From positions 1,054,001 through 1,118,000 of the forward strand of contig NZ_JALKCG010000001.1 in assembly GCF_023016525.1 (NCBI RefSeq): DNA of 64,000 nt, read 5' to 3'. Below the pieces are notes generated by a model, which was given only the letters and a program-made list of their open reading frames with translations, had not been told where the DNA came from and ran no database searches. The translations under genes were made by a program, and so were the position numbers. Below, in pieces: positions 5,766-51,896 of this stretch. Numbering within the stretch: position 1 is the stretch's first letter; each line of letters starts with the position of its first letter. The DNA is from Ancylobacter koreensis (GTDB lineage: Bacteria; Pseudomonadota; Alphaproteobacteria; Rhizobiales; Xanthobacteraceae).

Positions 5766-6484
5766 CTTCGCAGATCATCGTCATCCCGGCCCGCCGCTCC
5801 CATTCCAACCATGCGGAAGTGGCCCGCACCATCGGCATCGACATCATCGCCGGCCGTTATAGTGAAGGCGCCAAGCTGCCGGGCGATGCCGAACTGACGC
5901 TGATCTTCGGCGTGTCGCGGCCGGTGCTGCGCGAGAGCGTGAAGACGCTGGTGGCCAAGGGCCTGCTCTCGACCAAGGCGCGCGTCGGCACGGTGGTGCG
6001 CGAGCGTGCCGCCTGGAACATGTTCGACGCCGACGTGCTGGCCTGGCATCTCGATGCCGGCATCGACAAGCGCTTCCTGCGCGACCTCTCGGAAATCCGC
6101 CTCGCGGTGGAGCCGCGCGCCGCCGCGCTCGCCGCCGAGCGCCGCAGCGAGGACCAGCTCGCGCTGATGCGCCGCGCCGTCGCCCGGATGAAGGACGAGC
6201 CCGGCGCCTCCGAAGGCTTCGCCGAAGCCGACCTGACGCTGCATGTGGAGGTCGCCGCCGCCTCGGGCAATCCATTCATGCGCTCGGTCGGCGCGGTCAT
6301 CGAGGCGGCGCTGCGCGCTTCCTTCGTGCTCTCCGCCCCGGGCGACGCGCGCGAGCACGACATCGCGGTTGCCGCCCATGAGCGCATCGTCGAGGCCATC
6401 GCTGATGCCGATGGCGAGGCCGCCGCCGCCGCCATGACCAATGTGATTTTCAACGGCCTGCGCCGCCACGGCGCGGCCGGCTGA
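5762..6484 (+). CDS. GntR-family transcriptional regulator with FCD domain (DgoR-like)
   Basis: Probable local repressor of the sugar block. A winged helix (about residues 15-80) contains GVSRPVLRESVKTLVAKGLL followed by the wing RVGTVV. An all-helical FCD ligand domain follows, with the spaced Asp/His pattern DLTLHVEVAAASGNP and a later AAHERIVEAI, which normally bind metal and a carboxylate ligand. DgoR in this subfamily senses galactonate, fitting the aldonate genes around it, but arabinonate or 2-keto-3-deoxy sugars are equally possible. GTG start overlaps the yjfF stop. 240 residues. Confidence 0.88.
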   Translation: MTSQIIVIPARRSHSNHAEVARTIGIDIIAGRYSEGAKLPGDAELTLIFGVSRPVLRESVKTLVAKGLLSTKARVGTVVRERAAWNMFDADVLAWHLDAGIDKRFLRDLSEIRLAVEPRAAALAAERRSEDQLALMRRAVARMKDEPGASEGFAEADLTLHVEVAAASGNPFMRSVGAVIEAALRASFVLSAPGDAREHDIAVAAHERIVEAIADADGEAAAAAMTNVIFNGLRRHGAAG

Positions 6485-36651: not shown

Positions 36652-37892
36652 CAGCCGGTCTCCCGGAAGCGGAAGCGCACGGAGCCCGCCCTCGCGGCGC
36701 CCGGTGGGATGGGCACGAGGATGCGCCGTTCCGGCCGCCATGTGCCCGCGCGCGCCCATACCTCGCGGCCGTCGATCTCCAGCGACAGGCGTCCGGATGC
36801 GGTGCGGGAGAAGCGGAGCTGGAAATCGGGCAAGGCCGGCACGGCATTGGCGCCGGCGCGCAGCAGGCTCGGCACGACGAGCTTGATCGGCGCCTCGAAT
36901 CCGACCGGGATCGGGACGCCGGCCTCGGCATCGCGGGCCAGATCCTCCGCGATGGCCATGCCCACGGCACGTCCCTCGCGGAAGGCCCAGCCGCCGGTTT
37001 CCACCGCGCGCAGAAGGTTGCCGCCAGCGAAGACGAGGGGATCGCGGCTGCGTCCGTCCTGGTCGACGGCCGGGCCGGCGCTACCGGGCTCGACGCCGAC
37101 GGCGGACTGGCGGAACAGCGCCGATTCCGGGGTGAAGCGGCCGGTGAGCAGCACGCCGTCGCAGGCGAGCGTGTGGGCGGTGCCGTCGGCGAGGCGGATC
37201 GTGACCTCCTCGACGCGAGCGGTGCCGCGAATGTCGGCGATGTCGGCACCCAGATGAAAGGGTACGCCGACGAGGCGCGGGAACCAGTTGAACGGCGCGC
37301 GGGCGAGGGGATGCGGGCCGGGCTCGATCATCGCCACGGGGCGGGCGCCATGGGTCAGGCAGGTGAACAGCGCCGACTGGCTCACCAGTTCCGAGCCGAC
37401 GATGAGCGGGCGGCGGAACGGCATCAGGCCGTGAAAGGCGGCATAGGATTGCAGCGTGCCGGTGGTGACGATGCCGAGCGGACGGTCGCCGGGGATCAGC
37501 CGGGCCGAGCGCGGCGTCTCGCGCGCGCCGGTGGCGATCAGGATGCGGCGGGCGGATAGGGTGACGACGCCGGAAGAGGAGGCGACCTCCAGCCTTCCGC
37601 CGGGCTCCAGCCGCACCACGGAATGGCCGGTGCGCACCTCGACGCCCGCCTGCGCGGCTTCTGCCGCCAGACGGCGGCCATAGGCGGCGCCGAGATAGAC
37701 CCGGCCGAATTCGCGCATGCCGAAGGGCGAATGGGCGCAATGCCGGGTGGCGCCGCCGAGCTCGTCCTCGCGGTCCAGCAGCACGACGTGGGCGACGCCC
37801 TGCCGGCGCAACTCCACCGCCGCCGCGACTCCGGCCGGGCCGCCGCCGACCACGATGACGTCGGCGGTTGCGCTCTCGAAGGGGCCGCTCAT
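36651..37892 (-). CDS. NAD(P)/FAD-dependent oxidoreductase (HcnB/pyridine-nucleotide disulfide reductase-like)
   Basis: Flavoprotein subunit, 413 residues. FAD fold DVIVVGGGPAGVAAAVELRRQG, second nucleotide region around PLIVGSELVSQSALF, RRILIATGARETPRSARLIPGDRP and the FAD-closing VFAGGNLLRAVETGGWA. Resembles the partner subunits that pass electrons from a DAO-type dehydrogenase (as in hydrogen cyanide synthase and opine oxidases). It lies between the kinase and the GlpA-like gene with 4-base overlaps on both sides, implying one complex or pathway. Confidence 0.83.
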   Translation of the reverse strand: MSGPFESATADVIVVGGGPAGVAAAVELRRQGVAHVVLLDREDELGGATRHCAHSPFGMREFGRVYLGAAYGRRLAAEAAQAGVEVRTGHSVVRLEPGGRLEVASSSGVVTLSARRILIATGARETPRSARLIPGDRPLGIVTTGTLQSYAAFHGLMPFRRPLIVGSELVSQSALFTCLTHGARPVAMIEPGPHPLARAPFNWFPRLVGVPFHLGADIADIRGTARVEEVTIRLADGTAHTLACDGVLLTGRFTPESALFRQSAVGVEPGSAGPAVDQDGRSRDPLVFAGGNLLRAVETGGWAFREGRAVGMAIAEDLARDAEAGVPIPVGFEAPIKLVVPSLLRAGANAVPALPDFQLRFSRTASGRLSLEIDGREVWARAGTWRPERRILVPIPPGAARAGSVRFRFRETG

Positions 37893-39319
37893 TCCTCGCG
37901 CTCCCCGACGGCGAGCGGTGGCGCGAGGCGGCCCTGCGTCATCTCAGCCAGCCGGGCGTTGCAGTAGAAGCCCTGGCAGCGGCCCATGCCGGCGCGTGTG
38001 CGCCGCCGCAGCCCGCCGAAATCGCCGGGCGGAATCGCGCTGTCGAAGGTCGCCTCGATCTCGCGCCGCGTCACCAGTTCGCAATGGCAAACGATCTCGC
38101 CATGGTCCGGCCGCTGCCAGTCGCGCTCGCGCGTCTGCGCGAGGTTGGGCAGGCAGACGGCCGGCGGCTCGGCGGGAACGGTCGCCGGCAGGCCGAAATC
38201 CTCATGCAGCTTCAGCGCATGGCTGGCGAGGCCGAGCGCGGCGGAAAGCCCTGTCGAGCGTATGCCGCCCAGCGTGATGGCGCGCCGCTCCGGCCGGGCG
38301 ATCACCCGATAGGCCTTGCTCTCTGTCGCCGGGCGCAGCCCGGCATAGACCGCCGTCACCGGAATGCCGGCCAGCGCCGGCACGATCTCCGCGCCGCGCG
38401 CCAGCAGGGCCTCCAGCGCGCCGGTCTCCACCGTCGCGCGGGTGCGGTCCTCCTGCTCCTCGGCGGTCGGGCCGATCAGCACATTGCCGAAGGCGGTGGG
38501 GCAGACGACGACGCCCTTGGTGATCTCGGTCGGCACCGGCAGCACGATGCGCGGCACATGGGCGAAGGCCGCCTTGTCGAGCACGACGAACTGGCCCTTG
38601 CGGGGGCGAATCTCGAATTCCGGTTTGAGGCCGAGGCGGGCGTCGACGAGATCGCCGTAAAGGCCGGCGGCGTTGACGACGGCGGCGGCGCGCAGCGTGC
38701 CGGCGGAGGTTTCCAGAATCCAGTCGTCCTCGAAGCGCCCCCCGATCAGCTCCGCATCGCGCAGCAGACGGGCGCCGAGCGCCACCGCCTGCGTCAGATA
38801 GGCGAGCGGGGCGCTCCACGGGTCGATGACGTGCTCGCCCGCCACCTCGATGGCGGCGACGAGGCGTTCGGACAGGCCGGGGCAGGTGGCGCGGGCCTCC
38901 GTGCCGGAGAGCAGGCGCAACTCGTTGACGCCGTTGGCGCGGCCCTGCGCGGCGATGGCGTCGAGCTTGTCGGCCTCCAGCGCGTTCCAGGCGCAGACCA
39001 GCGCGCCGGTCTCGACGAGCGGCAGGCCGAGGCTGTCGCGGATGGCGAGATATTCCGCGCGACCGGCCTGCACCAGCTCCAGTTCGAGACTGCCGGGCGG
39101 GGCGTCGAAGCCGGTGTGCAATATGGCGCTGTTGGCCTTGGACGCCCCGGAGAGGATGTCCGCGCCCTTCTCGATCACCACCACCCGGGCGCCGGCAAGC
39201 GCGAAGCGGCGCGCCACCGCGCAGCCGACCACGCCCGCGCCGATGACGGCGAGGTCGTAAGGTCCGGCGAAGTCGGGGGAGGGGGTATGGAGCACGGGCG
39301 CTCCCTTCCAATCAAACAT
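37889..39319 (-). CDS. GlpA-like FAD-dependent dehydrogenase with C-terminal BFD [2Fe-2S] domain
   Basis: DAO-superfamily flavoprotein of 476 residues resembling anaerobic glycerol-3-phosphate dehydrogenase subunit A. N-terminal YDLAVIGAGVVGCAVARRFALAGARVVVIEKG; NSAILHTGFD; RPRKGQFVVLDK; GLRPATESKAYRV. The C-terminal domain has C411-x-C413 (IVCHCELV) and C448-x4-C453 (CQGFYC), the four ligands of a bacterioferritin-associated-ferredoxin-like [2Fe-2S] cluster. Likely oxidises a polyol phosphate (or the free substrate) with the HcnB-like protein as partner. First 15 residues precede the flavin motif; the start could be slightly downstream. Confidence 0.85.
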   Translation of the reverse strand: MFDWKGAPVLHTPSPDFAGPYDLAVIGAGVVGCAVARRFALAGARVVVIEKGADILSGASKANSAILHTGFDAPPGSLELELVQAGRAEYLAIRDSLGLPLVETGALVCAWNALEADKLDAIAAQGRANGVNELRLLSGTEARATCPGLSERLVAAIEVAGEHVIDPWSAPLAYLTQAVALGARLLRDAELIGGRFEDDWILETSAGTLRAAAVVNAAGLYGDLVDARLGLKPEFEIRPRKGQFVVLDKAAFAHVPRIVLPVPTEITKGVVVCPTAFGNVLIGPTAEEQEDRTRATVETGALEALLARGAEIVPALAGIPVTAVYAGLRPATESKAYRVIARPERRAITLGGIRSTGLSAALGLASHALKLHEDFGLPATVPAEPPAVCLPNLAQTRERDWQRPDHGEIVCHCELVTRREIEATFDSAIPPGDFGGLRRRTRAGMGRCQGFYCNARLAEMTQGRLAPPLAVGEREE

Positions 39320-39363
39320 CGCGCGGGCATCTGGCCCGCCGCGTCACGCGAACGGCCCGCCGG

Positions 39364-39385
39364 GGGCGGGGAGGCGGCCCCGCCC
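39364..39385 (-). terminator. GC-rich hairpin between the TRAP receptor gene and the GlpA-like gene
   Basis: GGGCGGGG-6-CCCCGCCC, a perfect 8-bp stem about 40 bases after the dctP stop on the minus strand. No T-tract. In this position it probably limits, rather than stops, transcription into the three enzyme genes. Confidence 0.45.
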
Positions 39386-39425
39386 GGAGGGCGGAGCCGC
39401 AATGTCGAAGGTCGGCCGCCGCCGC

Positions 39426-40538
39426 TCAGCGGTAGGGGTAGCCGGCCTTCTGCATGGTCTCGTCGTACTTCTTGAAAGCCGCGACGACCTTGCCCGCGCG
39501 CGGGCTGGAGGCGGCGACCTCGTCCCAGAAGCCCTTGGAATCGGCGACGACCTGCGCCCATTCGGCCGGCGGCAGCGACGTCAGTTCCATTTTCTGGCCT
39601 TCGACGCGCAGCTTGGCCTCGCCGCCCCAGTACCAGACATCGCGATAATAGTGGGACTGGTCGATGCTCATCAGGAACAGCTCCTTAAGATGAGCCGGCA
39701 CCTTCTCCCAGCTCGGCGTGTTGGCGAAGTAGCTGCCGAACCAGGCGCCGGTGACCGAGTTGGTGAGCGCGTAGTTGCACACATCCGCCCAGCCCACCTC
39801 ATAGGCCTCGGTGAAGCCGCACCAGGCGACGCCGTCAAGCTCGCCGGTCTGCAGCGCGACTTCCACATTGTCCCACGGGATCGTCACCGGCACGAGGCCG
39901 TATTTGGAGAGGAACTTGCCGGCGGTCGGCACGCCGAAGACGCGCAGGCCCGCCATGTCGGCAAGGCTCTTGATCGGCTTGTTGACGGTGAAGATGTGCA
40001 GCGGGTCCCAGGCGCCGGTGGACAGCCAGGTGACGTTCGGCACCTCGGCATAGGCTTCCGCCCAGATGTCCTTGAGGCCGTAGTAGCGGAACAGCGCCGG
40101 CACATCGAGGCTGTAGCGGGTGGCGAAGGGGAAGTAGCCGCCGAACACGGCGATGTCGACCGGCGAGGCCATGGTGGCCTCGTCCGACTGCACCGCGTCG
40201 AGCGTGCCGGTCTGCAAGGCGCGGAACAGGTCGGAGGTCGGCACGAGCTGGTCGGCGTAATAGAGCTCAATCTCCATCGCGCCGTTGGCCGCCGCGTTGA
40301 AGGCGTCGATCTGCGGCTTGATGACATGGGCGCCGAGCGGGGCGCCCGAATAGGTCTGCAGGCGCCACTTGATGGTGCCGGCCTGGGCGATGACGGCGGG
40401 CGCGGCCAGCGTCGAGCCGGCCAGCGCGGCGCCGGTGCCGAGCGCCGCCTTGCCGAGGAAGCTGCGGCGGGTGGCGAGAATGGCGTCGGCGGCGGGGTCG
40501 ATCTTCTTGGGGAAGGGCTTCTTGGTCTCGTCAGTCAT
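39426..40538 (-). CDS. TRAP transporter substrate-binding protein (DctP/TakP type)
   Basis: Periplasmic receptor of 370 residues. A twin-arginine motif TRRSFLGKAALGTGAAL at residues ~24-40 and AxA-type cleavage after APAVIAQA predict Tat export. Body motifs include WRLQTYSGAP, LRVFGVPTAGKFLSKYG (ligand Arg), ALQTGELDGVAWCGFTEAYEVGWADV and YPYR at the C-terminus. The GELDGVAW...Y region belongs to the subgroup that includes 2-oxoacid and lactate binders; the ligand here is unknown. Confidence 0.9.
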   Translation of the reverse strand: MTDETKKPFPKKIDPAADAILATRRSFLGKAALGTGAALAGSTLAAPAVIAQAGTIKWRLQTYSGAPLGAHVIKPQIDAFNAAANGAMEIELYYADQLVPTSDLFRALQTGTLDAVQSDEATMASPVDIAVFGGYFPFATRYSLDVPALFRYYGLKDIWAEAYAEVPNVTWLSTGAWDPLHIFTVNKPIKSLADMAGLRVFGVPTAGKFLSKYGLVPVTIPWDNVEVALQTGELDGVAWCGFTEAYEVGWADVCNYALTNSVTGAWFGSYFANTPSWEKVPAHLKELFLMSIDQSHYYRDVWYWGGEAKLRVEGQKMELTSLPPAEWAQVVADSKGFWDEVAASSPRAGKVVAAFKKYDETMQKAGYPYR

Positions 40539-40576
40539 CTTTTTCTCCTCTGGAAGGGGGAAGGATGGGCTGTTGC

Positions 40577-41914
40577 TCAGCCCTTGACGTTCATGTGCTC
40601 GGGCAGCCAGAGCGCGATCTGCGGGAAGACCATCAGGATGACGATGGTGAACATCATGATCGCGGCGAACGGCCAGATCGACCGATAGATGTCGACCAGC
40701 GAAATCTCCTTCGGCGCCAGCGAGCGCATCAGGAACAGGTTGTAGCCGAAGGGTGGGGTTATGTAGGCGATCTGGCAGGTGATCGTGTAGAGGATGCCGT
40801 ACCAGATCAGCTGGTTGTTGAAGCCAAGGTCGAGCGCCTTCACCAGCGGGATGTAGAGCGGCGCGACGATGACCAGCATCGCGGTGTCGTCGAGGAACAT
40901 GCCCATCACGATGAAGCTGAGCTGCATCATGATGATGATGGTCCAGGGGTTCAGGTCCCACTGCTTGACGAACAGGAACTCGATCGCCTTCACCGCGCCG
41001 AGCCCGTCGAACACCGTGCCGAAGGCAAGGGCGGCGAGGATCAGCCACATGAACATGCAGGATACGTTCAGCGTCTTCAGCGAGGTGTCGCGCACCACCG
41101 GCCAGTTGAACCGTCGCTTGTAGATCGCCGCCAGCGTCGCCGTGGTGGCGCCGACCGCCGAGCTCTCGACGAGGCTGGTGACGCCGAAGACGAAGAGGCC
41201 GGTCATGAAGAAGAAGATAGCGAAGGGGATGACGCCCGCCCGCGCCAGCGCCAGCTTCTCGCGAAGCGGCATGTTCAGCTCTTCGTCGGTGAGCTTGGGC
41301 GCCAGCTTCGGGTTCAGCTTCACGCGGACATAGATGTAGATGATGAACAGCGCGGCCATCAGCAGGCCGGGGCCGACGCCGGCGAACCAGAGCTTGGAGA
41401 CCGGCTGGCGGGCGATCATGCCGTAGAGCACCAGCACCACCGATGGCGGGATGAGGATGCCGAGCGAGGAGCCGCCCTGGATGACCCCGGAGATCAGCAC
41501 CTTGTCGTAGCCGCGGCGGATCATTTCCGGCAGCGCGATGGTGGCGCCGATCGCCATGCCGGCGACGGAGAGGCCGTTCATCGCCGAGATGATGACCATC
41601 AGGAAGATGGTGCCGATGGCGAGGCCGCCGGTGAAGCGCCCGAACCAGACATGCAGCGCTCGGTACAAATCCTCCGCGATCCCGGATTCCGCGAGGATGT
41701 AGCCCATGTAGATGAACATGGGCAGGGTGAGCATCGCGTACCAGTTGAACAGCTTGAAGACCTGGTTGAACGGCAGGTCCATGGCGCCGGGGCCGTAGAG
41801 CAGCAGCGCGGCGGCGGAGGCGACGAAGCCGATGCCGGCGAAGACGAGCTGCCCGCTGATGAGCGCCAGCACCATCGAGGCGAACATCAGCAGCGCGATC
41901 AACTCATAAGACAT
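40577..41914 (-). CDS. TRAP transporter large permease (DctM type)
   Basis: Carrier subunit, 445 residues, about 12-13 membrane segments. Family motifs: LTLPMFIYMGYILAESGIAEDL, GGLAIGTIFLMVIISAMNGLSVAGMAIG, GVIQGGSSLGILIPPSVVLVLYG and QIAYITPPFGYNLFLMRSLAP. Starts at ATG 41914, sharing one base with the DctQ stop (TGATG). Charged loop VKLNPKLAPKLTDEELNMPLREKL separates the two halves. Confidence 0.92.
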   Translation of the reverse strand: MSYELIALLMFASMVLALISGQLVFAGIGFVASAAALLLYGPGAMDLPFNQVFKLFNWYAMLTLPMFIYMGYILAESGIAEDLYRALHVWFGRFTGGLAIGTIFLMVIISAMNGLSVAGMAIGATIALPEMIRRGYDKVLISGVIQGGSSLGILIPPSVVLVLYGMIARQPVSKLWFAGVGPGLLMAALFIIYIYVRVKLNPKLAPKLTDEELNMPLREKLALARAGVIPFAIFFFMTGLFVFGVTSLVESSAVGATTATLAAIYKRRFNWPVVRDTSLKTLNVSCMFMWLILAALAFGTVFDGLGAVKAIEFLFVKQWDLNPWTIIIMMQLSFIVMGMFLDDTAMLVIVAPLYIPLVKALDLGFNNQLIWYGILYTITCQIAYITPPFGYNLFLMRSLAPKEISLVDIYRSIWPFAAIMMFTIVILMVFPQIALWLPEHMNVKG

Positions 41915-42462
41915 CAGAACTTCTCCCCGCGCAGCGTGGCGATGTGCTTGAAGACGAGGGAGAAGGCCTGCAGCAGCATCAGCACGAGGCAGGCGGTGAG
42001 CAATGCCTTGATCGGGATCACCGAGGGGTTCCAGATCGAGAAGCGCTTCTCGTTGGTGGCGATGGCGTATTGCAGGCTGGAGATCGAGCCCGTCAGCATG
42101 ACGCCGAGATAGAAGATCAGGCACCAGACGGTGGCGAGATCAGCCTTGGCCTTGCCGCGCTCGGAGAGCGAGGAATACCAGAGGTCCATGCGGACATGTT
42201 CGTTGTTCTTCAGGGTGAACGGGCCGCCCATGAAGTAATAGGCGGCGAGCGTGAACTGCGTGAGTTCCACCGCCCAGTGCACCGGCATCTTCAGCAGGTT
42301 GCGGGTCACCGCGTCGAAGATCAGCACGCCGCCCATCATGAAGATGAGCGAGGCGGCGAGATAGCCGACATAGTCCGAGATGCGGTCGATGAAGCGCACA
42401 TAGTGGCCGATGGCCCCCCAGATGCCTCCCGGCCTCGCCGGCGCCGCCTGTTCCACGTTCAC
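41914..42462 (-). CDS. TRAP transporter small permease (DctQ type)
   Basis: Small membrane subunit of 182 residues with four hydrophobic segments; core VELTQFTLAAYYFMGGPFTLKNNEHVRMDLWYSSLSERGKAKAD is DctQ-like. First gene of the minus-strand operon, so its upstream region (42463-43090) is the control region. Gene order DctQ-DctM-DctP-GlpA-like-HcnB-like-kinase. Confidence 0.88.
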   Translation of the reverse strand: MNVEQAAPARPGGIWGAIGHYVRFIDRISDYVGYLAASLIFMMGGVLIFDAVTRNLLKMPVHWAVELTQFTLAAYYFMGGPFTLKNNEHVRMDLWYSSLSERGKAKADLATVWCLIFYLGVMLTGSISSLQYAIATNEKRFSIWNPSVIPIKALLTACLVLMLLQAFSLVFKHIATLRGEKF

Positions 42463-42815
42463 GCTGTCGCTCCGTTGACGGTCGATCGGATGCGCCGGCG
42501 GCCGAAGGGCCGGTTGGCGGCGCGCGGACGCACCGGACCCGTCGCGAGCGGGCCGTCAGCCCCGCTCGCGGGTGCGCGATGCGGATGGTTGGATAGCCTT
42601 GCGGAGGAAGCTTCCGGGTCCGGCGGCGCGCTGCACGCCCGGCCCGTTTCCGGCAGCCGCCCCGGTCGGGCTATGCGGCCGGCGTCGGAATGGTGGTCAT
42701 CTGCAATCCCCTCGTGCGCGGTCTTGCACCTCTTATGTGCATGCTCGCTTTTTTCGCACTTTCGGCACTCTAGCCGGTTTTTTCCGGAAGGGAAGTCCGA
42801 AATTCGCCCATTTCG

Positions 42816-42857
42816 CCCAAACGGTCAATGTATCTTCGCTCGAAGTGACCGTTTGGG
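42816..42857. promoter_or_regulatory. 12-bp inverted repeat CCCAAACGGTCA / TGACCGTTTGGG, probable DeoR operator
   Basis: CCCAAACGGTCA (42816-42827) and TGACCGTTTGGG (42846-42857) are exact reverse complements with an 18-bp spacer, putting the half-site centres 30 bp (nearly three helical turns) apart. The TGACCGTT core recurs at 42878. The arrangement fits a multimeric DeoR-family repressor bound between the divergent genes. Confidence 0.7.
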
Positions 42858-42877
42858 AAGTTGCCGTGCCTTAAAGT

Positions 42878-42891
42878 TGACCGTTCGGTCA
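42878..42891. promoter_or_regulatory. Palindrome TGACCGTTCGGTCA, second probable DeoR site
   Basis: TGACCG-TT-CGGTCA is a near-continuous palindrome sharing the TGACCGTT half-site of the 42816-42857 repeat, 20 bp downstream of it. A shared core in three half-sites strengthens the operator interpretation. Confidence 0.65.
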
Positions 42892-43090
42892 TATTCTGGT
42901 CTTCTTATCCCAAGGTCGGGGGTGGGCGGTCTCGTGCTGCGGGCGATGTCTGCCGTTGCGGGACGATTGACCGCCCTTGCCGCACCACTTAACCGACCGG
43001 TCGGGAGCGGCGGCGCCTGTCAGGCGCCGGCCGGTGTCGCCGGTTGTCCCTCAAGACCCGGGGCCGCGCCCGGTACGGCAGGATGACGAC

Positions 43091-43882
43091 GTGCAGCCCA
43101 CCTCGCGCCATGAACAGATCGTCGCGCTCGTCGCCCGTTCGGGCGAGGTGAGCGTGGAGGCGCTCGCCGAAGCGCTCGACGTCTCGCGCGAGACCGTCCG
43201 GCGCGATCTCGCCCGGCTCGACGCCGACGGGCAGCTCCGCCGATTCCACGGCGGCGCCCGCGCGCTCGGCGTGCGGGCGGCGCCGTCCGCCGCCGTGACC
43301 GAGAAGGAGTGGCCCTTCGCCCAGCGCATGGCGCAGAACGCCGCCGGCAAGGCGCGCATCGCCGCCGCCGCCTGTGGTCTGTTCCAGCCGGACGATTCGC
43401 TCTTCGTCGACACCGGCAGCACGACGGTCGCCTTCGCCGAGGCGCTGGCGGCCTGCCCGCCGCTGGTGGTGATCACCAATGCGCCGCGCATCGCCTCCAC
43501 CCTCGCGCAGGGGGGCGGGCACAAGGTGTTCCTGATCGGCGGCGCCTATGGCGCGGATGCCGGCGAGAGCCTCGGCCCGCTGGCGCTGGAGCAGATCGGC
43601 AAGTTCCGCGCCCGCCACGCCGTGCTCACCGTCGGCGCGGTGGACCAGGCCTGCGTGATGGATTTCGACGTGCAGGAGGCCGAGGTCGCCAAGGCGATGA
43701 TCGAGCGCGCCGACCGCGTCACCGTGCTGGCCGACCACAGCAAGTTCGACCGCCGCGCCGTTTTCGAGGTGGCGCCGCTGGCCGGCATCGACACGCTCGT
43801 GACCGATGTGACGCCTTCCGAGACCATGGCGCGCGCGCTCGCCGCCGCCGGCGTCGAGGTTATCGTCGCCGATCCCGCTTGA
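43091..43882 (+). CDS. DeoR/GlpR-family transcriptional repressor
   Basis: 263 residues. N-terminal helix-turn-helix SRHEQIVALVARSGEVSVEALAEALDVSRETVRRDLARLDADGQLRRFHGGA is the DeoR signature; the C-terminal domain has DDSLFVDTGSTTVAFAEAL and VLADHSKFDRRAVFEV, which bind phosphorylated sugars in this family. Likely senses the product of the divergently encoded kinase and releases the TRAP/kinase operon. GTG start at 43091 is seven bases after an AGGA; the ATG at 43083 is out of frame. Confidence 0.88.
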   Translation: MQPTSRHEQIVALVARSGEVSVEALAEALDVSRETVRRDLARLDADGQLRRFHGGARALGVRAAPSAAVTEKEWPFAQRMAQNAAGKARIAAAACGLFQPDDSLFVDTGSTTVAFAEALAACPPLVVITNAPRIASTLAQGGGHKVFLIGGAYGADAGESLGPLALEQIGKFRARHAVLTVGAVDQACVMDFDVQEAEVAKAMIERADRVTVLADHSKFDRRAVFEVAPLAGIDTLVTDVTPSETMARALAAAGVEVIVADPA

Positions 43883-44031
43883 GCGATGCGTGCGGACGGA
43901 CGCTGCGCAGGCGGGCTCTTTCCGGAGGATATTTGCCGGCGATGCTTGCCATTGCCGCATCGGTGGCTAGGCTAGGTGGCCTGGAGTGACGTCGGCCGAA
44001 AACAGGGCCGGCGGTTGAGGGAAGTTCGGAA

Positions 44032-44139
44032 ATGCGCAAGGCCTATGTTACGCCGGCACTCGTGAAGGTGCAGTCCCTGTCCGCGATCACGGCGGCTCCT
44101 GCGCCGGTAACTTCGGGCTATACCCCTCCCGTCACCTGA
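44032..44139 (+). CDS. RiPP precursor peptide with lasso-type leader
   Basis: A 35-codon gene with a GAGGGAAG ribosome site. The leader fits the lasso consensus Y-x2-P-x-L-x9-T exactly: Y5, P8, L10 and T20, with Gln where Gly is usual (residue 14). In lasso systems cleavage occurs two residues after that Thr position begins, after T-x, which predicts cleavage after A21 and a 14-residue core APAPVTSGYTPPVT. The core contains no Asp or Glu, so the macrolactam ring of a lasso peptide cannot form. It is rich in Pro and hydroxylated residues (three Thr, one Ser, one Tyr, with Thr at the C-terminus). The following genes encode leader recognition, proteolysis and a kinase. Confidence 0.75.
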   Translation: MRKAYVTPALVKVQSLSAITAAPAPVTSGYTPPVT

Positions 44140-44359
44140 TCCTCCGCGACCTACCGGTTTGCCGGCACAGCATTTCCGTGGCGTGATCCTTACCCTGCGG
44201 AAGGGTCGCGCCGCGCCGGTCGCCTGATCGAGCGCTTTCGCGGCGCGGGCTGCTATCGCCCTGCGTCGCAGCTCCGGCTTGCGGGTCGTTTACGGCTTGA
44301 AAAGCGGGCGCTGCCTTGGCAGGGTCCGTCCGGGATCGCGCGCGTGAGCATGGAAGAAC

Positions 44360-44644
44360 ATGTCGGCCATTGAATCGACCACCGTCCTCGTGCTGGCGCC
44401 GATGGCGTCGGTGCAGTCGGTCGGGGAGGGCGCCGTCGTGCTGCTCGCCGACAGCGGCCAGCTCTTCACCTGCAACGAGACCACCGAGGCCTTTCTCGGC
44501 AAGCTCGACGGCCGGCGCAGCTTCGCCGAGGTGATCGAGCTGATCGGCGGCGAGTTCGAGGCCGATTCCGATACGCTGAACGCCGATTTCGCCGCCCTCG
44601 CGCTCCAGCTCCTCGACGAGCGGGTGATCGAGCGGGCCGGCTGA
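44360..44644 (+). CDS. PqqD-family RiPP recognition element protein (lasso B1-like)
   Basis: 94 residues forming a stand-alone RiPP recognition element. VVLLADSGQLFTCNETTEAFLGKLDGRRSFAEVIELIGGEFEAD shows the beta-hairpin then helices of PqqD-like proteins, with the conserved N-x-T/S-x2-x-hydrophobic segment before the helix. In lasso clusters this protein binds the Y-P-L leader motif and presents the peptide to B2. Separated by 221 bp from the precursor gene, a gap that contains only a short ACCCT-5-AGGGT hairpin near 44190; it is followed by B2 seven bases later. Confidence 0.85.
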   Translation: MSAIESTTVLVLAPMASVQSVGEGAVVLLADSGQLFTCNETTEAFLGKLDGRRSFAEVIELIGGEFEADSDTLNADFAALALQLLDERVIERAG

Positions 44645-44651
44645 GGGCGCC

Positions 44652-45086
44652 ATGGCGCCCGCCTCCCGCGCATCCTCCCCCGGTTCGCTGTGGCGCCGGC
44701 TGCGCTTCCGCGCCGATGTCTGGCTGGCGGCGCGGCTGCTGCCCCTGCGGCTGCGCGGACGCCGTTTCGAGGAGGTGCTTCACACGGTGCCGGTGAAGCC
44801 GTGCCCGCGCTATGCCGGACTTTCCGCCGAGTTCATCAGCCGCACCGTGTTCCGCGTCACGCGCCGCCCGCTGCTGATGCGCGACCGGCGCTGCCTGCGG
44901 CAGGGCCTGCTCGGCTTCGGCTACATGGCGCAGGCGGGGCTGAAGCCGGAGCTGCATTTCGCGGTGGCGCGCGATTCCGTTCCCACCGGCCGGCTCGCCG
45001 CCCATTGCTGGGTGTGCATCGACGGGCAGCCGGTGTTGAGCGACCGCACGCCGGACATGGTGACGATCTATGTCCACCGCCTCTGA
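44652..45086 (+). CDS. Lasso-type B2 leader peptidase (transglutaminase-like)
   Basis: Cysteine protease that removes RiPP leaders in lasso biosynthesis. 144 residues with the expected triad: C81 in DRRCLRQGLL, H118 in AAHCWV and D124 in VCIDGQPVLS. The upstream helix LAARLLPLRLRGRRFEEVL is typical. All catalytic residues are present, so cleavage of the 44032 precursor is plausible even though no cyclase is encoded. Overlaps the kinase gene by 17 bases. Confidence 0.88.
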   Translation: MAPASRASSPGSLWRRLRFRADVWLAARLLPLRLRGRRFEEVLHTVPVKPCPRYAGLSAEFISRTVFRVTRRPLLMRDRRCLRQGLLGFGYMAQAGLKPELHFAVARDSVPTGRLAAHCWVCIDGQPVLSDRTPDMVTIYVHRL

Positions 45087-46083
45087 GCCCGGCGCTCCGG
45101 CCCTCGGCGCTTTCCTCGCGCAGTACGATATCGGCGGCCATCTTCTGGCGCTGGAGGCGCAGACCGCTGCGCTGCTTCAGCCCCTCGATCTCTTCCTCGC
45201 CCCCTTGCGGGTCGAGCCCGACCGCACGCCCGATTTCCGCCTCCTGCTGCGGCACGGGCCGCATCCGGCCGTGCAGGCGGGCGACGTCCCGCTCTTCGCG
45301 GGGCCGCTCCTTACCGAGGGCGAGTTCGAAGGCTTCCGCCGCAGCGAGGGGCTGCTGCTGCGCGGGCCGGACGTTTCCGCGCTGATCGAGCCGGCCCGGC
45401 GGCGGGCGGTGATCGTCACCGCACCGGGCGCCGAATTCCGCACGGCAAGCTCGGCCGGGCTGATCGCGCTGGAGATGGTGGTCGACGCCTTCGGGCAGGC
45501 GCTCGTCCATGCCGCCGGGCTGACCCTGCCGGACCGCGACGCGCTGGTGCTGCTGCACGCGCCGAGCGGCACCGGCAAGACGACGACGGCGCTGGCGCTG
45601 GCGGGCGCCGGCTTCGGCCTGTGCGCGGATGACGCCATCGTGCTTCGCGACGGCGAGGCGGGAATTTCCGCCTGGGGCCTGCCGCGCTTCGTGAAGATCC
45701 ATCGCCGCACGGCGGCGTTGCTGCCCTGGCTCGCCCCGGCGCTCGGCCCGGTCTGGGACGCGGGTGGCGAGCAGGCGGTGCCGCTCGCGGCGCTCTCCCG
45801 CCATGCCCGCATCGAGGACCGGCGCCCGCGCGCTGTCGCTGCCCTGTTCATGGTCACGCGCGGCGAAGGACCGACGCAGGTGCATGCGCAGCCACGGGTC
45901 GACGCGCTGGCGGCGCTGGCGGCGGACAATGTGCGGGGCGGCATCGCCGGGCTGGAAGCGCATCAGGCGCGGCGCTGGGCGCTGCTGGCGCGGCTGGTCT
46001 CGGCGACGCCGGTGTTCGAGTTGCGCGTCGGGCCGGATGTCGGGGAGATCGCCGCGCGGGTGCGCGAGGCGCTCGCGCTCTAG
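45070..46083 (+). CDS. HPr-kinase-related kinase of a RiPP cluster
   Basis: 337 residues. P-loop APSGTGKTTTALAL near residues 163-176 and the second HprK-type motif LCADDAIVL at ~184-192. The N-terminal half lacks the standard HPr kinase regulatory domain. Homologues in some lasso clusters (paeninodin type) phosphorylate the C-terminal Ser of the peptide; this core ends in Thr and has further Thr/Ser. Could instead modify another partner. The gene ends with a 4-base convergent overlap with the nucleotidyltransferase gene. Confidence 0.82.
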   Translation: MSTASEPGAPALGAFLAQYDIGGHLLALEAQTAALLQPLDLFLAPLRVEPDRTPDFRLLLRHGPHPAVQAGDVPLFAGPLLTEGEFEGFRRSEGLLLRGPDVSALIEPARRRAVIVTAPGAEFRTASSAGLIALEMVVDAFGQALVHAAGLTLPDRDALVLLHAPSGTGKTTTALALAGAGFGLCADDAIVLRDGEAGISAWGLPRFVKIHRRTAALLPWLAPALGPVWDAGGEQAVPLAALSRHARIEDRRPRAVAALFMVTRGEGPTQVHAQPRVDALAALAADNVRGGIAGLEAHQARRWALLARLVSATPVFELRVGPDVGEIAARVREALAL

Positions 46084-46940
46084 TCGAGAAGTTGCAGCCA
46101 GCGAAAGCCGTGGCGGCGCAGATGCGAGGCGCGCGAGGTGCGCGGGGCGGCCTCGAGCACCGCGTCGACGCCGAGCAGCCGCCGGCCGAGGGCGCCACGG
46201 CGGCCGGCGGGAAAGCGGGCGGCCAGCGCGGCGGTGCGCCCGTCCCCGAACAGCGCCGCCGTCACATGCAGTGCGGCACCGACTTCCAGCTCCGCGCCGA
46301 CGCGCCCGACCGCCTGCACCAGCGCGTCCTCGTCGGTGACATGGCGGGCCGCCTGCAGCAGGTCGACGGCGAATTGCAGCCGGTGGAACTTGTGGCCGCC
46401 CAGCGCATGGATCGCCGCGACGAGAAGCATCCCGGCCGGGCTCGGCTCGGTGTCCGGGCTCACCGCCTTGAGCTGGGTGTAGCCAAAGGACAGGCGCCGG
46501 CGCAGCGCGGGGTAGTGCACGAGGTCGCCCTGCGCCTCGACCATGAGGTTCGGATTGCCCTTCAGGAACCATTTATATTCGAGGTAGCGGGCCGAATTGT
46601 CCCAGACCTTCTCGTGCAACTCGAAGCCGCAATCGGCCAGCGCCGCGCCGATGCCGTCGAGGTCGGAGGGGTCGGCGAGGAGGTCGATGTCGGTGAAGGT
46701 GCGGTCGGAGGTGTGCGCGTAGAGCCTGTCGGCGAAGACCGGGCCCTTGACGATTTCGGCGGGGATGGCGCGTTCTCGCAGCCGCTCGCCGATCCGTGCC
46801 GCATGGTGGCGCAGCAGCATGGCGCGTCCGACCGTGAAGGTGTGCTCGGTTTCCAGCCGCTCGACCTCGGCGCGGAACGTTTCGCCGCGCCCCTCGCGCC
46901 GCGCGGCACCGCGCAGCTTGCGCCAGACGATGGCAAGCAC
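46080..46940 (-). CDS. Nucleotidyltransferase-family protein associated with the RiPP cluster
   Basis: Member of the NTP_transf_5 family: GPVFADRLYAHTSDRTFTDIDLLADPSDLDGI holds the G-x...D-x-D nucleotidyltransferase motif (DIDLL). Such proteins recur beside lasso/HprK genes and are thought to add a nucleotide or sugar-like group. From GTG 46940 it has 286 residues, but the frame stays open to 47102 and encodes a plausible family N-terminus (DARLGAIFEHARGHGVLAIVW) without an ATG, GTG or TTG; a CTG at 47069 with CGGAGG upstream may be the true start (329 residues). Confidence 0.78.
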   Translation of the reverse strand: MLAIVWRKLRGAARREGRGETFRAEVERLETEHTFTVGRAMLLRHHAARIGERLRERAIPAEIVKGPVFADRLYAHTSDRTFTDIDLLADPSDLDGIGAALADCGFELHEKVWDNSARYLEYKWFLKGNPNLMVEAQGDLVHYPALRRRLSFGYTQLKAVSPDTEPSPAGMLLVAAIHALGGHKFHRLQFAVDLLQAARHVTDEDALVQAVGRVGAELEVGAALHVTAALFGDGRTAALAARFPAGRRGALGRRLLGVDAVLEAAPRTSRASHLRRHGFRWLQLLD

Positions 46941-47184
46941 GCCATGGCCGCGGGCGTGCTCGAAGATCGCCCCCAGCCGCGCATCGGGCCAGTCCGCCGC
47001 CTCGGGCGCGGGGGCCTGGGGATCGGCGAGCCGGCAAAGGACGCGCTTCTCCTCATTATCCAGTGACAGGGGCGCGGCCTCCGGTGCGGCGGGAGGCGAG
47101 GCTTATCACGCCGTCCGCCGGGCCGACCAGCCCGGCCGACAGACGGACCTCGTTCCTGCTTCCAGACCGGCCGGCAGGCGGATG

Positions 47185-48222
47185 TCAGTCCGCCATCCAG
47201 ACAGGCCACGTGTCGGAGAGCCGGTAGCCGGTCGGCCACGGATCTTCCGGATCGAGCATGAGCTGGGCGGTATGCGTCACCCAGGCGCGCCCCATGATGG
47301 AGGGGAAGATCGCCGGCCGGCCGCCGACGCTCGTCTCGCCCTCGATCCGGCACTCGAAGCGCGAATCGATGATGGAGCGGCCGATGAAGGTCTCGCCGAC
47401 CTTGAGCTGGCCCTTGGCGTGCAGCACCGCCATGCGGGCCGAGCAGCCGGTGCCGGTGGGCGAGCGGTCGATCTTGCCGGGGCGGATGGCGACCGCGTTG
47501 GCGCCGGTCTTAACGCCGTTCTCCTCCACCACGGGGGCGGCGAACTGGCAGAAGGAGATGTGGTTCCAGTCGGCATTCTCGGGGTGCTTGAAGCCGAGCT
47601 GGCGGTTGGCCGCCTTGACGATCTTCATGCCGGCCTCGGCGAGGTCCCTGGCTTCATCCGGGCGGATGGAGAAGCCCAGCGCATGGGCGTCGACGATGAC
47701 GAAGCTGTCGCCGCCATAGGCGGTGTCGACGGTCAGCGTGCCGAGCCCCTCGACCTCCAGCTTTGCGTCGAGCTTGTCGGCGAAGGAGGGATGGTTGCGC
47801 ACCTTGATGCGCTCGGCCTTGCCGTCGCGGCAATAGGCGGTGGCCTCGATGAGACCGCCCGGCGCCTCCAAAACCATGTGGGTCTCCGGCTCGACCATCG
47901 GCACGATGCCGGTGTCGAGCAGCACGGTCGACACGCAGATCGAGTTGGAGCCGGACATGGGCGGGGTGTCTTCCGGCTCCATGATAATCCAGGCGGCGAC
48001 GGCACGCGGGTCCTTCGGCGGCACCAGCAGGTTCACATGGCGGAAGACACCCCCACGGGGCTCCTGCAGCACGAAATTGCGCAGCGTGTTGTCGGAGGCG
48101 ATAAAGCGCGACTGCGCCCACACCGTGTCGCCGGGCGGCGGGGCGACCCCGCCGACGATGACGTCGCCGACCTCGCCCTCGGCATGGCAGCCGACGACGT
48201 GGATGATTTTGCTGGTGCGCAT
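47185..48222 (-). CDS. Proline racemase-family protein, probable trans-3-hydroxy-L-proline dehydratase
   Basis: 345 residues. The proline-racemase fold normally uses two Cys; here the first position is S90 (MSGSNSICV) and the second is T256 ([12 protein letters not shown], with C260 nearby). Loss of the second Cys to Thr is the mark of trans-3-hydroxyproline dehydratases, which make pyrroline-2-carboxylate, while true epimerases keep both. A Ser/Thr pair could also indicate another substrate. It is separated from the rest of the hydroxyproline operon by 292 bp carrying a plus-strand small gene, so it may have its own promoter. Confidence 0.8.
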
Positions 48223-48287
48223 GGAGGGCAGCCTCGTCGGTTGGGCCTATGTTACGCTTACCGGAATCGGTCACTGGGACAACTCAG

Positions 48288-48518
48288 ATGCGCCCCGACG
48301 ACATCCAATATGCAGACGATGAAATGCCGAAGCGTTTCGTTGTATATCGACTCGATATCGACAATCGGCCGTCCTCTGTCGAAGGCGAGTACGATACAAT
48401 CGAAGAGGTGTTAGCTCATAAGTGGCGGCTAGATCGCAGCTACTCGATACGTGTCGACCGGATACACATGAACCGAATTGAGTTCGACCGCTGGGTGTTG
48501 CTTCAGAAGAAGCACTAG
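48288..48518 (+). CDS. Small protein of unknown function, atypical composition
   Basis: Not recognised. About 76 residues from ATG 48288 (89 from an in-frame ATG at 48249). The sequence is rich in Arg, Asp, Ile and Tyr (for example [12 protein letters not shown]), and its codons use far more A/T than neighbouring genes, which suggests recent acquisition or a non-coding stretch. It is antisense to the hydroxyproline operon, and its stop overlaps the stop of the enolase-family gene. Reality as a gene is uncertain. Confidence 0.45.
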
Positions 48519-49615
48519 ATCACCACCACCGGGTCGCCGAGCACGTCGAACAGCGGCGCGATGCCGAGGCCCGGCGCGTCGGAGGCGGTCATGAAGCCGT
48601 TCACGCGCTTCGGCGCGCCGCTCGCGATGTCGACCGTGCCGTAGCTGTTGAAGTCGGTGGCGGAGAAGGAGAACTCCTCCGGCGTCGAGCGTGCGAGGTG
48701 GGCGATGGTGGCGGTCACGATGTCGCCGCCCCAGGTGTCCTCGATGGTCATCGGCGTGCCGGAGGCGACGCAGATGTCGCGCATCAGCCGCGCCTTGGTG
48801 AGGCCGCCGACCTTGGAGATCTTCAGGTTGATGATGTCCATCGCATCGTCCGCCAGCGCCTTCATCAGCGTGCCGACGCCGTCGATCACCTCGTCCAGCA
48901 CGAAGGGCCGGGCGGTGCGGGCGCGCACCGAGAGGCATTCCTCATAGGTCGGGCAGGGCTGCTCGATATAGACGTCGAGATCGGCGACGGCGGCGGCGAT
49001 GCGCGCGGCTTCCGCCCGCGTCCAGCCGGTATTGGCGTCGGCCACCAGAATGTCGGAGGCGTCCAGAATCTCACGGGTGGCGCGGATGCGGTCGATGTCC
49101 TGATCCGCGTCACCGCCGACCTTGAGCTGGAACTTGGTGTAGCCCTCGGCCTTGTAGCCGGCGATCTTCTTCGCCATCGCCTCGGGCGCCTCCTGCGAGA
49201 TGGCGCGGTAGAGCGCGACCTTTTCCTGCGCCGCGCCGCCGAGCAGCTTGTAGACCGGCAGCCCCGTGACCTTGCCGAGAATGTCCCAGCAGGCGATGTC
49301 GATCGGCGCCTTCACATAGGGATGACCGCGCAGCACCGAATCCATGTGCCGGTTCAGCACGTTGAGGTCGGTCGGGTCGAGGCCGATCACCTTCGGGCCG
49401 ATTTCCTCAAGTCCCGCACGCACGCCATGGGCATAGGCGGGCAGATAGGCCGAGCCGAGCGGGCAGCACTCGGCATAGCCGGTGATGCCGGCGTCGGTCT
49501 CCACCGCGACGACGGTGGAATCGAACACCTCGACGAAATTGCCGTTCGACCAGTTGTAGCGGCCTTCCTTGAGCGGGAGGCCGACCTTGTAGGCCTTGAT
49601 GCCGGTGATCTTCAC
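48515..49615 (-). CDS. Mandelate racemase/muconate lactonizing enzyme-family protein, probable cis-3-hydroxyproline dehydratase or proline-derivative epimerase
   Basis: Enolase-superfamily enzyme, 366 residues. Capping domain then barrel: FQLKVGG (Lys at the end of strand 2), [13 protein letters not shown] and VLDEVID (metal Asp/Glu/Asp), and [10 protein letters not shown] (Lys on strand 6). The [16 protein letters not shown] and [19 protein letters not shown] blocks resemble hydroxyproline-betaine epimerases and the enolase-type cis-3-hydroxyproline dehydratase. Context among hydroxyproline genes supports action on a proline derivative. The exact reaction cannot be fixed from sequence. Confidence 0.82.
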
Positions 49616-49626
49616 GTCGTTTCTCC

Positions 49627-50628
49627 TCAGACCACCACGAAGCCGTGCGCGAAGGGGTCACGGTCGTCGATGAAGATGGTGTTGTAGCCGGTCATGCGGG
49701 CCCAGCCGCCGATGGAGGGGATGATCGCGTCGCGATCCCCCACCTTCACCGCCGCTTCCACCCGGCCCTTGAACAGCGAGCCGATGATGCTCTCATGCAC
49801 GAAGTCGTCGCCGACCTTCAGCCTGCCGAGCGCGGCGAGCTGGGCCATGCGCGAGGAGGTGCCGGTGCCGCAGGGCGAGCGGTCGATGGCCTTGTCGCCG
49901 TAGAACACGGCGTTGCGCGCATGCGCCTGCGGATCGCGGGCGGCGCCGGTCCAGAGGATGTGCGAGAGGCCGCGGATTTCCGGCTTCTCGGGGTGCACGA
50001 ACGTGTATTTCTCGTTGAGCGCGCGGCGCAGGCCCGGGCTCATGCCGACGAGCTGGCCGGCGGTGAAGTCCGCCATGTCGCGGAAATTCGGCTGCGGTTC
50101 GACGATGGCGTAGAAATTGCCGCCATAGGCGACGTCGACGGTGATCTCGCCGAGCTCCGGGCACTGCGCGGTCAGGCCCTGCGCGTAGAGGAAGCCCGGC
50201 ACGTTGGTGATGCGCACCTCTTCCACATATTGGCCGACCTGCTTGTACTCGGCCTTCACCACGCCAGCGGGCGTGTCGAGCATCAAGACGCCCGGCGTCT
50301 TCGGGGTGACGAGCCCGTGCTCGATGGCCATGGTCACGGTGCCGATGGTGCCGTGCCCGCACATGGGCAGGCAGCCCGAGGTTTCGATGAACAGGATGGC
50401 GACGTCGCAGTCCGGCCGGGTCGGGGGGTAGAGGATCGAGCCGGACATCATGTCGTGGCCGCGCGGCTCGAACATGAGACCGGTCCTGATCCAGTCGTAC
50501 TCCGCGAGGAAGTGCGCCCGCTTCTCGATCATGTTCGAGCCGACGAGGTTCGGCCCGCCGCCGGCCACCAGCCGCACGGGATTGCCGCAGGTGTGGCCGT
50601 CTATGCAGAAGAAGCTGTGTCGCGCCAT
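49627..50628 (-). CDS. 4-hydroxyproline 2-epimerase (proline racemase family)
   Basis: Interconverts trans-4-hydroxy-L-proline and cis-4-hydroxy-D-proline. 333 residues with both catalytic cysteines: C90 in [10 protein letters not shown] and C253 in [34 protein letters not shown] is the usual N-terminus of this subfamily. First catabolic step; the D-amino acid dehydrogenase next door takes the product. A 29-bp gap separates it from that gene. Confidence 0.92.
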
Positions 50629-50657
50629 GGGTCTACTCGTGAAAAGGGCTTTGATCG

Positions 50658-51896
50658 TCAGAAGCGGTCGGGACGGAAGGGGTCGAGAGGGATGGAGGGT
50701 GTCCGGCCGGCGACGAAGTCGGCGACCAGCTTGCCCGTCGCCGCGCTTTGCGTGAGGCCGAGATGGCCGTGGCCGAAGGCATAGAGGACGCGCGGGCTCG
50801 CGCGCGAGGCGCCGATCACCGGCAGGCTGTCCGGCAGCGAGGGGCGGAAGCCCATCCACTGCGTGCCGCCCCCGGTGCGCAGGCCGGGCAGGAAGGCGGC
50901 GGCCTTCTTCAGCATGGCCTCGGAGCGCTGGAAATTCGGCTTCAGCTTCAGCCCGCCGAGCTCGACGGCGCCGCCGACGCGGATGCCGGTGACGAGCGGC
51001 GTGACCACGAAGCCGTGGCCGCCAAAGGTGAGCTGGCGGCGCAGGTCGAAGGCGCCGGGCGGCAGTGTGGTGTTGTAGCCGCGCTCGGTTTCCAGCGGGA
51101 TGGCATCGCCGAGCGCGCGGGCCAGCGGGCGCGACCAGGCGCCGCCCGTCAGCACGGCGCGGCCGGCCTTCAGCACCGTCCCATCGGCGAGGCGCAGATG
51201 GACACCCTCCGCGTCGGGTTCGATGGCGCGCACCTCGCCATGGGTGAGTGCGGCGCCGCGCTCCATCGCCGCGCGGAACAGCGCGAGTGCGAAACGGTAG
51301 GGGTCGTTGACCGTCTGCCAGTGCGGGGTGAAGGTGCCGGCGATGAAGCGCGGGGAGAGGCCGGGCTGAAGTTCGGCGAGGCGCGCGCCGCGCACATGCT
51401 CGAAGGCGATGCCCTCCCGCGCCCGCGCGTCCCAGCCGGGCTGGGAGGCGGCAAGCTCGGCCTCGCTCTCATAAAGCTGGAGATTGCCGTCGTGCCGCAC
51501 ATGGCTGGACAGGCCGGCGGCGTCGATCATAGCGCCCATGGCGGGGGCGGCGAAGCGCATCAGGTTGCCCTGTGCTTCGAGCGAGGCGCGGTAGCGGTCC
51601 GGCAGGCTGGCGCGCCAGAAGCGCACGAGCCAGGGCGTGATCTGCGGCAAATAGGAGGGCGGGATGGCGAGCGGACCCAGCGGGTCCAGCAGCCATTTCG
51701 GCGCTTTGCGCAATATGCCGGGCGAGGCGAGGGGAAGGATATCGGTGAAGGCGAGCGCTCCGGCATTGCCGAAGGTCGCCCCCTCCGCCACGCCGCCACG
51801 CTCGACGAGGCGCACGCGATGGCCCTCCGCCAGCAGATGGAAGGCGGTGGCGAGGCCGACGATGCCGGCGCCGATGACGGCGACGTCTTCACTCAT
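50658..51896 (-). CDS. FAD-dependent D-amino acid (cis-4-hydroxy-D-proline) dehydrogenase
   Basis: DadA-like flavoprotein, 412 residues. FAD fold DVAVIGAGIVGLATAFHLLAEGHRVRLVER, the segment ETERGYNTTLP, and the C-terminal GFRPSLPDSLPVIGASRASPRVLYAFGHGHLGLTQSAATG. Oxidises D-hydroxyproline to pyrroline-4-hydroxy-2-carboxylate, feeding electrons to the membrane. Sits between epimerase and deaminase. A REP-like repeat lies just upstream. Confidence 0.9.
   Translation of the reverse strand: MSEDVAVIGAGIVGLATAFHLLAEGHRVRLVERGGVAEGATFGNAGALAFTDILPLASPGILRKAPKWLLDPLGPLAIPPSYLPQITPWLVRFWRASLPDRYRASLEAQGNLMRFAAPAMGAMIDAAGLSSHVRHDGNLQLYESEAELAASQPGWDARAREGIAFEHVRGARLAELQPGLSPRFIAGTFTPHWQTVNDPYRFALALFRAAMERGAALTHGEVRAIEPDAEGVHLRLADGTVLKAGRAVLTGGAWSRPLARALGDAIPLETERGYNTTLPPGAFDLRRQLTFGGHGFVVTPLVTGIRVGGAVELGGLKLKPNFQRSEAMLKKAAAFLPGLRTGGGTQWMGFRPSLPDSLPVIGASRASPRVLYAFGHGHLGLTQSAATGKLVADFVAGRTPSIPLDPFRPDRF

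Follow-up and report, generated by a model that had tools for sequence, protein, structure and literature searches.

Linear polyphosphorylated peptides (LPPs) were reported in Nature Communications in 2026 and, in the accessible sections of that report, are described by its authors as limited to Bacillota (PMC13381572). According to the same sections, the LPP kinase phosphorylates Ser3 of the core, not Thr or Tyr variants (PMC13381572). Here we analysed a 64,000-nucleotide stretch of the Ancylobacter koreensis genome (referred to as the window in the rest of the text), in which a preliminary description had pointed out a locus for a ribosomally synthesized and post-translationally modified peptide (RiPP) that combines the leader machinery of lasso peptides with a kinase and lacks a cyclase. 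The preliminary description held that known kinase-bearing lasso clusters have a cyclase; this applies to the paeninodin type but not to the cyclase-free relatives of Bacillota in the accessible LPP text (PMC13381572). Since LPPs are known, a cyclase-free, kinase-bearing lasso relative is not new in kind. Our sequence comparisons make it probable that the locus encodes a RiPP pathway producing short linear Ser-phosphorylated peptides through lasso-type leader handling: the machinery and the precursor frame are conserved, the cyclase is missing, the longer cores carry no acceptor acid, a core Ser is universal, and precursors co-occur with the machinery.

The locus (positions 44032-47069) consists of the precursor gene A followed by B1, B2, K and the convergent gene N (Table 1). 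Gene order and coordinates were verified in the window, and the observation made in the preliminary description was confirmed. The B2 residues C81, H118 and D124 are all in place, as claimed, and the B2 and K frames share 17 nt; B2 has no sequence relative in the PDB at E ≤ 0.1 and no match in the plasmids searched. K matched the Pfam model Hpr_kinase_C at 18.7 bits, under the cut-off. In its predicted structure (mean predicted local distance difference test score, pLDDT, 94.6) residues 5-337 align with PEPCK structures, the best 50 PDB matches to the model are PEPCK entries, and no HprK chain is among the matches listed; a PDB sequence search ranked HprK chains at the top, weakly (E 0.014). 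The N frame has no ATG, GTG or TTG start upstream of 46940, yet homology extends to about 47066, which leaves as start candidates GTG 46940 (giving 286 aa) or the CTG codons at 47063 and 47069.

In line with the preliminary description, PF00733 gave zero matches within the window. Across the window genome, which is 99.3% complete, it matched only two proteins, the N-acetylglutaminylglutamine (NAGGN) amidotransferase (TIGR03104, 989 bits), encoded beside its synthetase (TIGR03103, 863 bits), and MnmA; neither PF00733 nor the curated lasso-cyclase model NF033535 revealed a lasso cyclase in this genome. We ran NF033535 on 27 genome handles, 26 with the B1-B2-K-N set plus the lasso control G752, G629 and G448 being one genome counted as two handles. 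Nine of the 27 handles (8 distinct genomes), every one in the Mesorhizobium group, scored over the cut-off. No match was obtained at E ≤ 1e-5 in eight set-bearing genomes (G010, G020, G552, G581, G664, G702, G803 and G814), and G008, G026 and G580 reached 256-281 bits, which is under the cut-off. The cyclase of the control itself scored 372 + 138 bits, in two pieces.

A search of 61 near genomes with the window B2 gave relatives at E ≤ 1e-3 in 9, its own included (six of them strong); within the order Rhizobiales, a B2 profile matched 18 of the 397 genomes searched at E ≤ 1e-6. Of the 16 profile loci fetched, 15 contain the B1-B2-K-N set, and L112 is a lasso locus, where the motif check used for cyclase screening picked up the synthase. 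The 24 loci tested are these 15, the window, five loci of Ancylobacter and three named Mesorhizobium loci; L024 and L097 come from the same genome. L025 holds the four genes and was omitted from the 24-locus residue count, while the B2 matches L009-L013 and the kinase loci L026-L029 stand outside the resolved loci. A scan of named genomes gave at least five Mesorhizobium loci and at least four weak ones. Over the class, the own genome was the only one returned by the K profile (385 genomes, with at most 5 candidates scored in each) and by the B2 profile (at most 10 scored in each). All 24 loci carry the set without a cyclase in the examined flanks, which mostly reached about 8-10 kb per side and were shorter at contig ends (L103, L108). 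The gene order of the window, which the preliminary description had proposed to seek in relatives, recurs as a constant B1-B2-K with N convergent, co-directional or upstream. The H-K-D-D residues of K, the KG and DxD motifs of N and the Cys and His of B2 are retained at 24/24 loci, and an ABC exporter-type protein adjoins the set in L020. Between the window and Ancylobacter sp. TS-1 (G010), B1, B2, K and N show ratios of nonsynonymous to synonymous substitution (dN/dS) of about 0.2-0.35.

In trees a branch supported at 100/99 (B2) and 100/100 (K) sets the 24 loci apart, in a comparison limited to three lasso B2s plus one unresolved match and to two lasso kinases. Since the cyclase-less B2 and K proteins split from the lasso ones sampled, they are better explained by an ancient lineage of their own than by a recent loss, although sampling is thin. 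The earlier interpretation is upheld in part. Support was obtained for lasso-type leader handling that lacks a cyclase, for a core free of acid and for a product that is probably linear and phosphorylated; the co-loss of acid and cyclase from a lasso cluster is not supported in the form proposed.

The leader of A keeps the lasso-type spacing ascribed to it, with 16 residues from Tyr to position -1 as in three Rhizobiales lasso precursors, by analogy with which the core start was set 17 residues after the leader Tyr. The window contains a single instance of the leader pattern, which was composed after its sequence had been seen; among Markov-made windows 0/40 contain it. The frame at 44032 is conserved among homologues, including three syntenic copies in G010 with ...PVTSGY... 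cores (APPPPVTSGYVHYT, ASLPVTSGYTPVG and ATLPVTSGYTPTV), whose dN/dS against the window is about 0.45, 0.32 and 0.27 over 34 codons only. G022 and G020 bear precursor arrays with GANFSGKK cores, and the precursor cores of G026 and G008 are Pro-rich. Mesorhizobium precursors are scattered on the chromosome, and in G649 one also directly precedes B1. A precursor profile (A4, E ≤ 1e-4) matched 21/21 set-bearing genomes searched and 0/36 genomes chosen from those without a B2 match. Eleven of the 21 had supplied profile rows, and G629 is the same genome as one of these donors; all nine that are independent were positive (Fisher p 1e-9, kinship ignored). Matches numbered 14 in G022 with the full precursor profile, and 11 leader matches were found in one Mesorhizobium genome. 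A leader-only profile without core columns (A5) gave 72 matches at E ≤ 1e-3 in 12 of 14 set-bearing genomes. The window genome has a second precursor-like open reading frame (ORF) in L143, distant from the locus, which the full profile matched (E 3.6e-5) and the leader-only profile missed (threshold E ≤ 1e-3). It is conserved in G010 (L144; dN/dS about 0.17) and has no relative in the protein collection searched. Its core is also acid-free; neither a lasso cyclase in trans nor an acidic-core second precursor was found in this genome.

Genes for DUF6065 proteins accompany poly-Pro precursors (L143 ~5300-5980, L144:3985-4713, L019:6396-7475 and L020:5239-6303). In L019, as in its relative in L020, DUF6065 is joined with a PqqD domain, and in the window genome the gene is split between two reading frames; the DUF6065 model is weak (pLDDT 68.4), and a PDB fold search was empty at E ≤ 0.001. 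Between N and the precursor array of L017 (4470-6704) lie AMP-ligase, GNAT and acyl-carrier-like genes, which suggests an extra acyl modification there. At L102:7857-8204 (- strand) the family leader is fused to a Peptidase_S74 (endosialidase chaperone) domain.

The predicted window core has 14 residues and zero Asp or Glu, as described. The leader-only matches offer the cleanest test: within the first 12 core residues, Ser is present in 72/72 (at +5 in 50/72). All 138 unique cores collected also contain Ser (at +5 in 99). This collection was obtained by a recount that added ten profile or leader matches to 128 cores and made the leader-only result stronger; in the 128-core set no position apart from +5 exceeds 44% for a single residue. 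The first core set of 123 leaves out four ORFs below 17 bits and the 95-aa 'core' of the L102 fusion, and keeps two weak rows, possibly not real (L100, 17.4 bits; L090, 20.9 bits). In it, median core length is 11 aa, SG occurs in 69/123 cores compared to a mean of 22 and a maximum of 35 in 2000 shuffles, and the C-terminal residue is variable (Ser in 4/123). Asp or Glu at core positions 7-9 was found in 0/44 unique cores of at least 13 residues.

On these grounds we propose that B1 would bind the YxxP leader, as its homology suggests, and that K would phosphorylate the core Ser; for the window core, APAPVTSGYTPPVT, Ser7 would be the likeliest site. By lasso geometry, B2 would cleave after the 21-residue leader. 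N may attach a sugar or nucleotide to the phosphate, which is the weakest step. No ring would form because cyclase and acceptor acid are both missing. Co-occurrence further suggests that a single maturation locus can act on precursors encoded at other chromosomal sites. The scheme would parallel that of the Bacillota LPPs, with B2 replacing the signal-peptidase-like LppS.

Several observations weigh against the proposal of linear Ser-phosphorylated peptides. The sole Ser of the window core lies at +7, within TSG, and not at +5, and three Thr are present. The aligned B2 Asp is present at 18/24 loci and absent at 6/24, and the leader-only profile misses two set-bearing genomes, G580 and G581. 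The acid-free core, for which an alignment of precursors had been suggested, holds for 89 of the 138 unique cores, the other 49 containing Asp or Glu somewhere. In 13/138 the acid is at positions 7-9, all in cores below 13 residues, a length insufficient for a threaded tail; three of the ten added cores are among those with acid at 7-9, a slight point, and all ten have Ser. The cores are not independent, 49 of the first 123 being from the Mesorhizobium group and others near-copies in two arrays. No exporter, in agreement with the preliminary description, and no signal peptidase were detected among nine flanking window proteins, the search for a clustered signal peptidase having been confined to these nine and not extended to the rest of the window genome. 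In the accessible LPP text, deletion of lppN caused no detectable change (PMC13381572), so a role for N is unsupported.

Could K and N instead target Thr, the C-terminus or a non-peptide envelope substrate, with leader peptides merely recruiting or regulating them? Paeninodin kinases modify a C-terminal Ser, as stated in the accessible part of their description (PMC9266682), the window core ends in Thr, and Mesorhizobium loci sit amid genes that resemble, by eye, those for exopolysaccharide. We nevertheless regard this as unlikely given that the C-terminal residue is variable whereas the internal Ser is universal, and that precursors co-occur with the machinery. A decaying remnant of a lasso cluster after cyclase loss could explain the lasso-type leader, the B2 gene and the B2 proteins without the aligned Asp; such decay is very unlikely considering the intact catalytic residues of K and N, the dN/dS values of all four genes, the separate lineages of B2 and K and the existence of precursor arrays.

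Two further readings appear more improbable still. One is a lasso pathway with its cyclase in trans, the acid-free precursor being a variant and genuine rings being made elsewhere. Mesorhizobium-group relatives do have a separate lasso cluster (the nine NF033535-positive handles), which in G556 lies about 10 kb away from the set, and the proteins of G008, G026 and G580 under the NF033535 cut-off may represent divergent cyclases at other sites of these genomes. However, the window genome and eight set-bearing genomes yielded none, and each of the two lasso clusters inspected in the Mesorhizobium group comes with a B1, a B2 and an Asp9 precursor of its own. The other supposes that B1 and B2 release unmodified short signal or antimicrobial peptides, K and N serving immunity or regulation; the very short cores and the numerous diverse paralogues per genome agree with it, but cleavage alone would not need the Ser kept in hypervariable cores. 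The favoured pathway to linear phosphopeptides can also be extended, in a rather unlikely form, to one locus acting in trans on dispersed hypervariable Ser mini-peptides, whose phospho-Ser would become an activated or glycosylated phosphodiester, attached to envelope polysaccharide or secreted. If true, this would be a peptide-tagging system derived from lasso machinery.

Table 1. Coordinates of the features discussed; positions are those of the window unless a locus is given.
Feature	Coordinates	Strand	Evidence and remarks
Precursor A, 35 aa	44032..44139	+	leader MRKAYVTPALVKVQSLSAITA 44032-44094; predicted core APAPVTSGYTPPVT 44095-44136; homologues known
B1, PqqD-like RiPP recognition element, 94 aa	44360..44644	+	PF05402, 33.7 bits, over cut-off
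B2, lasso-type Cys leader peptidase, 144 aa	44652..45086	+	PF13471 (Transglut_core3), 43.3 bits, over cut-off; NCBIfam NF033537 (lasso_biosyn_B2), 57.1 bits, over cut-off
K, HprK/PEPCK-superfamily kinase, 337 aa	45070..46083	+	H147-K170-D187-D188; fold comparison
N, NTP_transf_5 nucleotidyltransferase, convergent with K	46080..47069	-	PF14907, 82 bits, over cut-off; start uncertain
Second precursor-like ORF of the window genome	L143:4985-5116, contig C12	+	core QVVVSGFVPVVPPPPPPPPP
Mesorhizobium-group lasso clusters	L239:11808-15820; L240:16840-19761		Asp9 cores, B1, B2, cyclase

The gap between A and B1 (44137-44340, 204 nt) folds better than its shuffles (z -2.7) and contains no promoter-like site, nor a terminator-like site on the + strand. 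Around the locus (37892-51896) the window holds two proline-racemase family genes, DAO-type oxidoreductases and a TRAP transporter. This looks like a hydroxyproline catabolism setting, and is partly syntenic in G010.

The probable pathway described here would widen the range of lasso relatives that have a kinase but no cyclase beyond Bacillota, into the order that includes Ancylobacter and Mesorhizobium, and suggests that an ordinary lasso B2 peptidase can serve a cyclase-free pathway. Its hosts are soil and nodule bacteria, and dispersed precursors are readily overlooked by cluster-based genome mining. No cyclase-free B2-type system of Proteobacteria was found in the literature searched, whose reach mostly excluded subscription papers.

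Among known systems, the Rhizobiales lasso clusters L239 (G556), L240 (G526) and L241 (G752) share B1, B2 and leader spacing with the window set, and L239 and L241 also have an HprK-like kinase. They differ by their cyclase (NF033535, 791 bits in L239, over the cut-off, and 512 bits in L241, just below 525), by Asp at core position 9 and by B2 and K proteins lying across the tree branch. L239 further includes an ABC-type gene. Judged as a lasso cluster, the window has the YxxP leader, the B1 recognition element and B2, and lacks the cyclase and an Asp or Glu at core 7-9. The paeninodin type, as far as its accessible description goes (PMC9266682), resembles the window set in an HprK-like kinase with H-K-D-D and, in pseudomycoidin, a nucleotidyltransferase; it differs in having a cyclase, a ring and a C-terminal phospho-Ser, where the window core has Thr. 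With LPPs, as presented in the accessible sections (PMC13381572), the set has in common a discrete RiPP recognition element, a YxxP leader, an HprK-like kinase, a nucleoside triphosphate transferase and the lack of a cyclase. A linear product, as in LPPs, is proposed here too. LPPs reside with lasso clusters and polysaccharide loci; members of the Mesorhizobium group likewise have a lasso cluster near the set, amid genes that by eye resemble polysaccharide genes. Differences concern the peptidase, the exporter and the leader motif: the leader peptidase is the SpI-like LppS in LPPs and a lasso B2 here, the MsbA-like exporter of LPPs has no counterpart in the window flanks scanned, and of the LPP motif YxxPxVLxHQxIxFETxxS the window leader shares YxxP only. 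LPP precursors measure 35-200 aa, with one to three per cluster, whereas the present cores are much shorter and their precursors often lie away from the machinery; phospho-Ser is at core +3 in LPPs, and the family Ser here mostly at +5. LPPs are the closest kind, and the window set is best read, by analogy, as a proteobacterial B2-type variant of an LPP-like kind.

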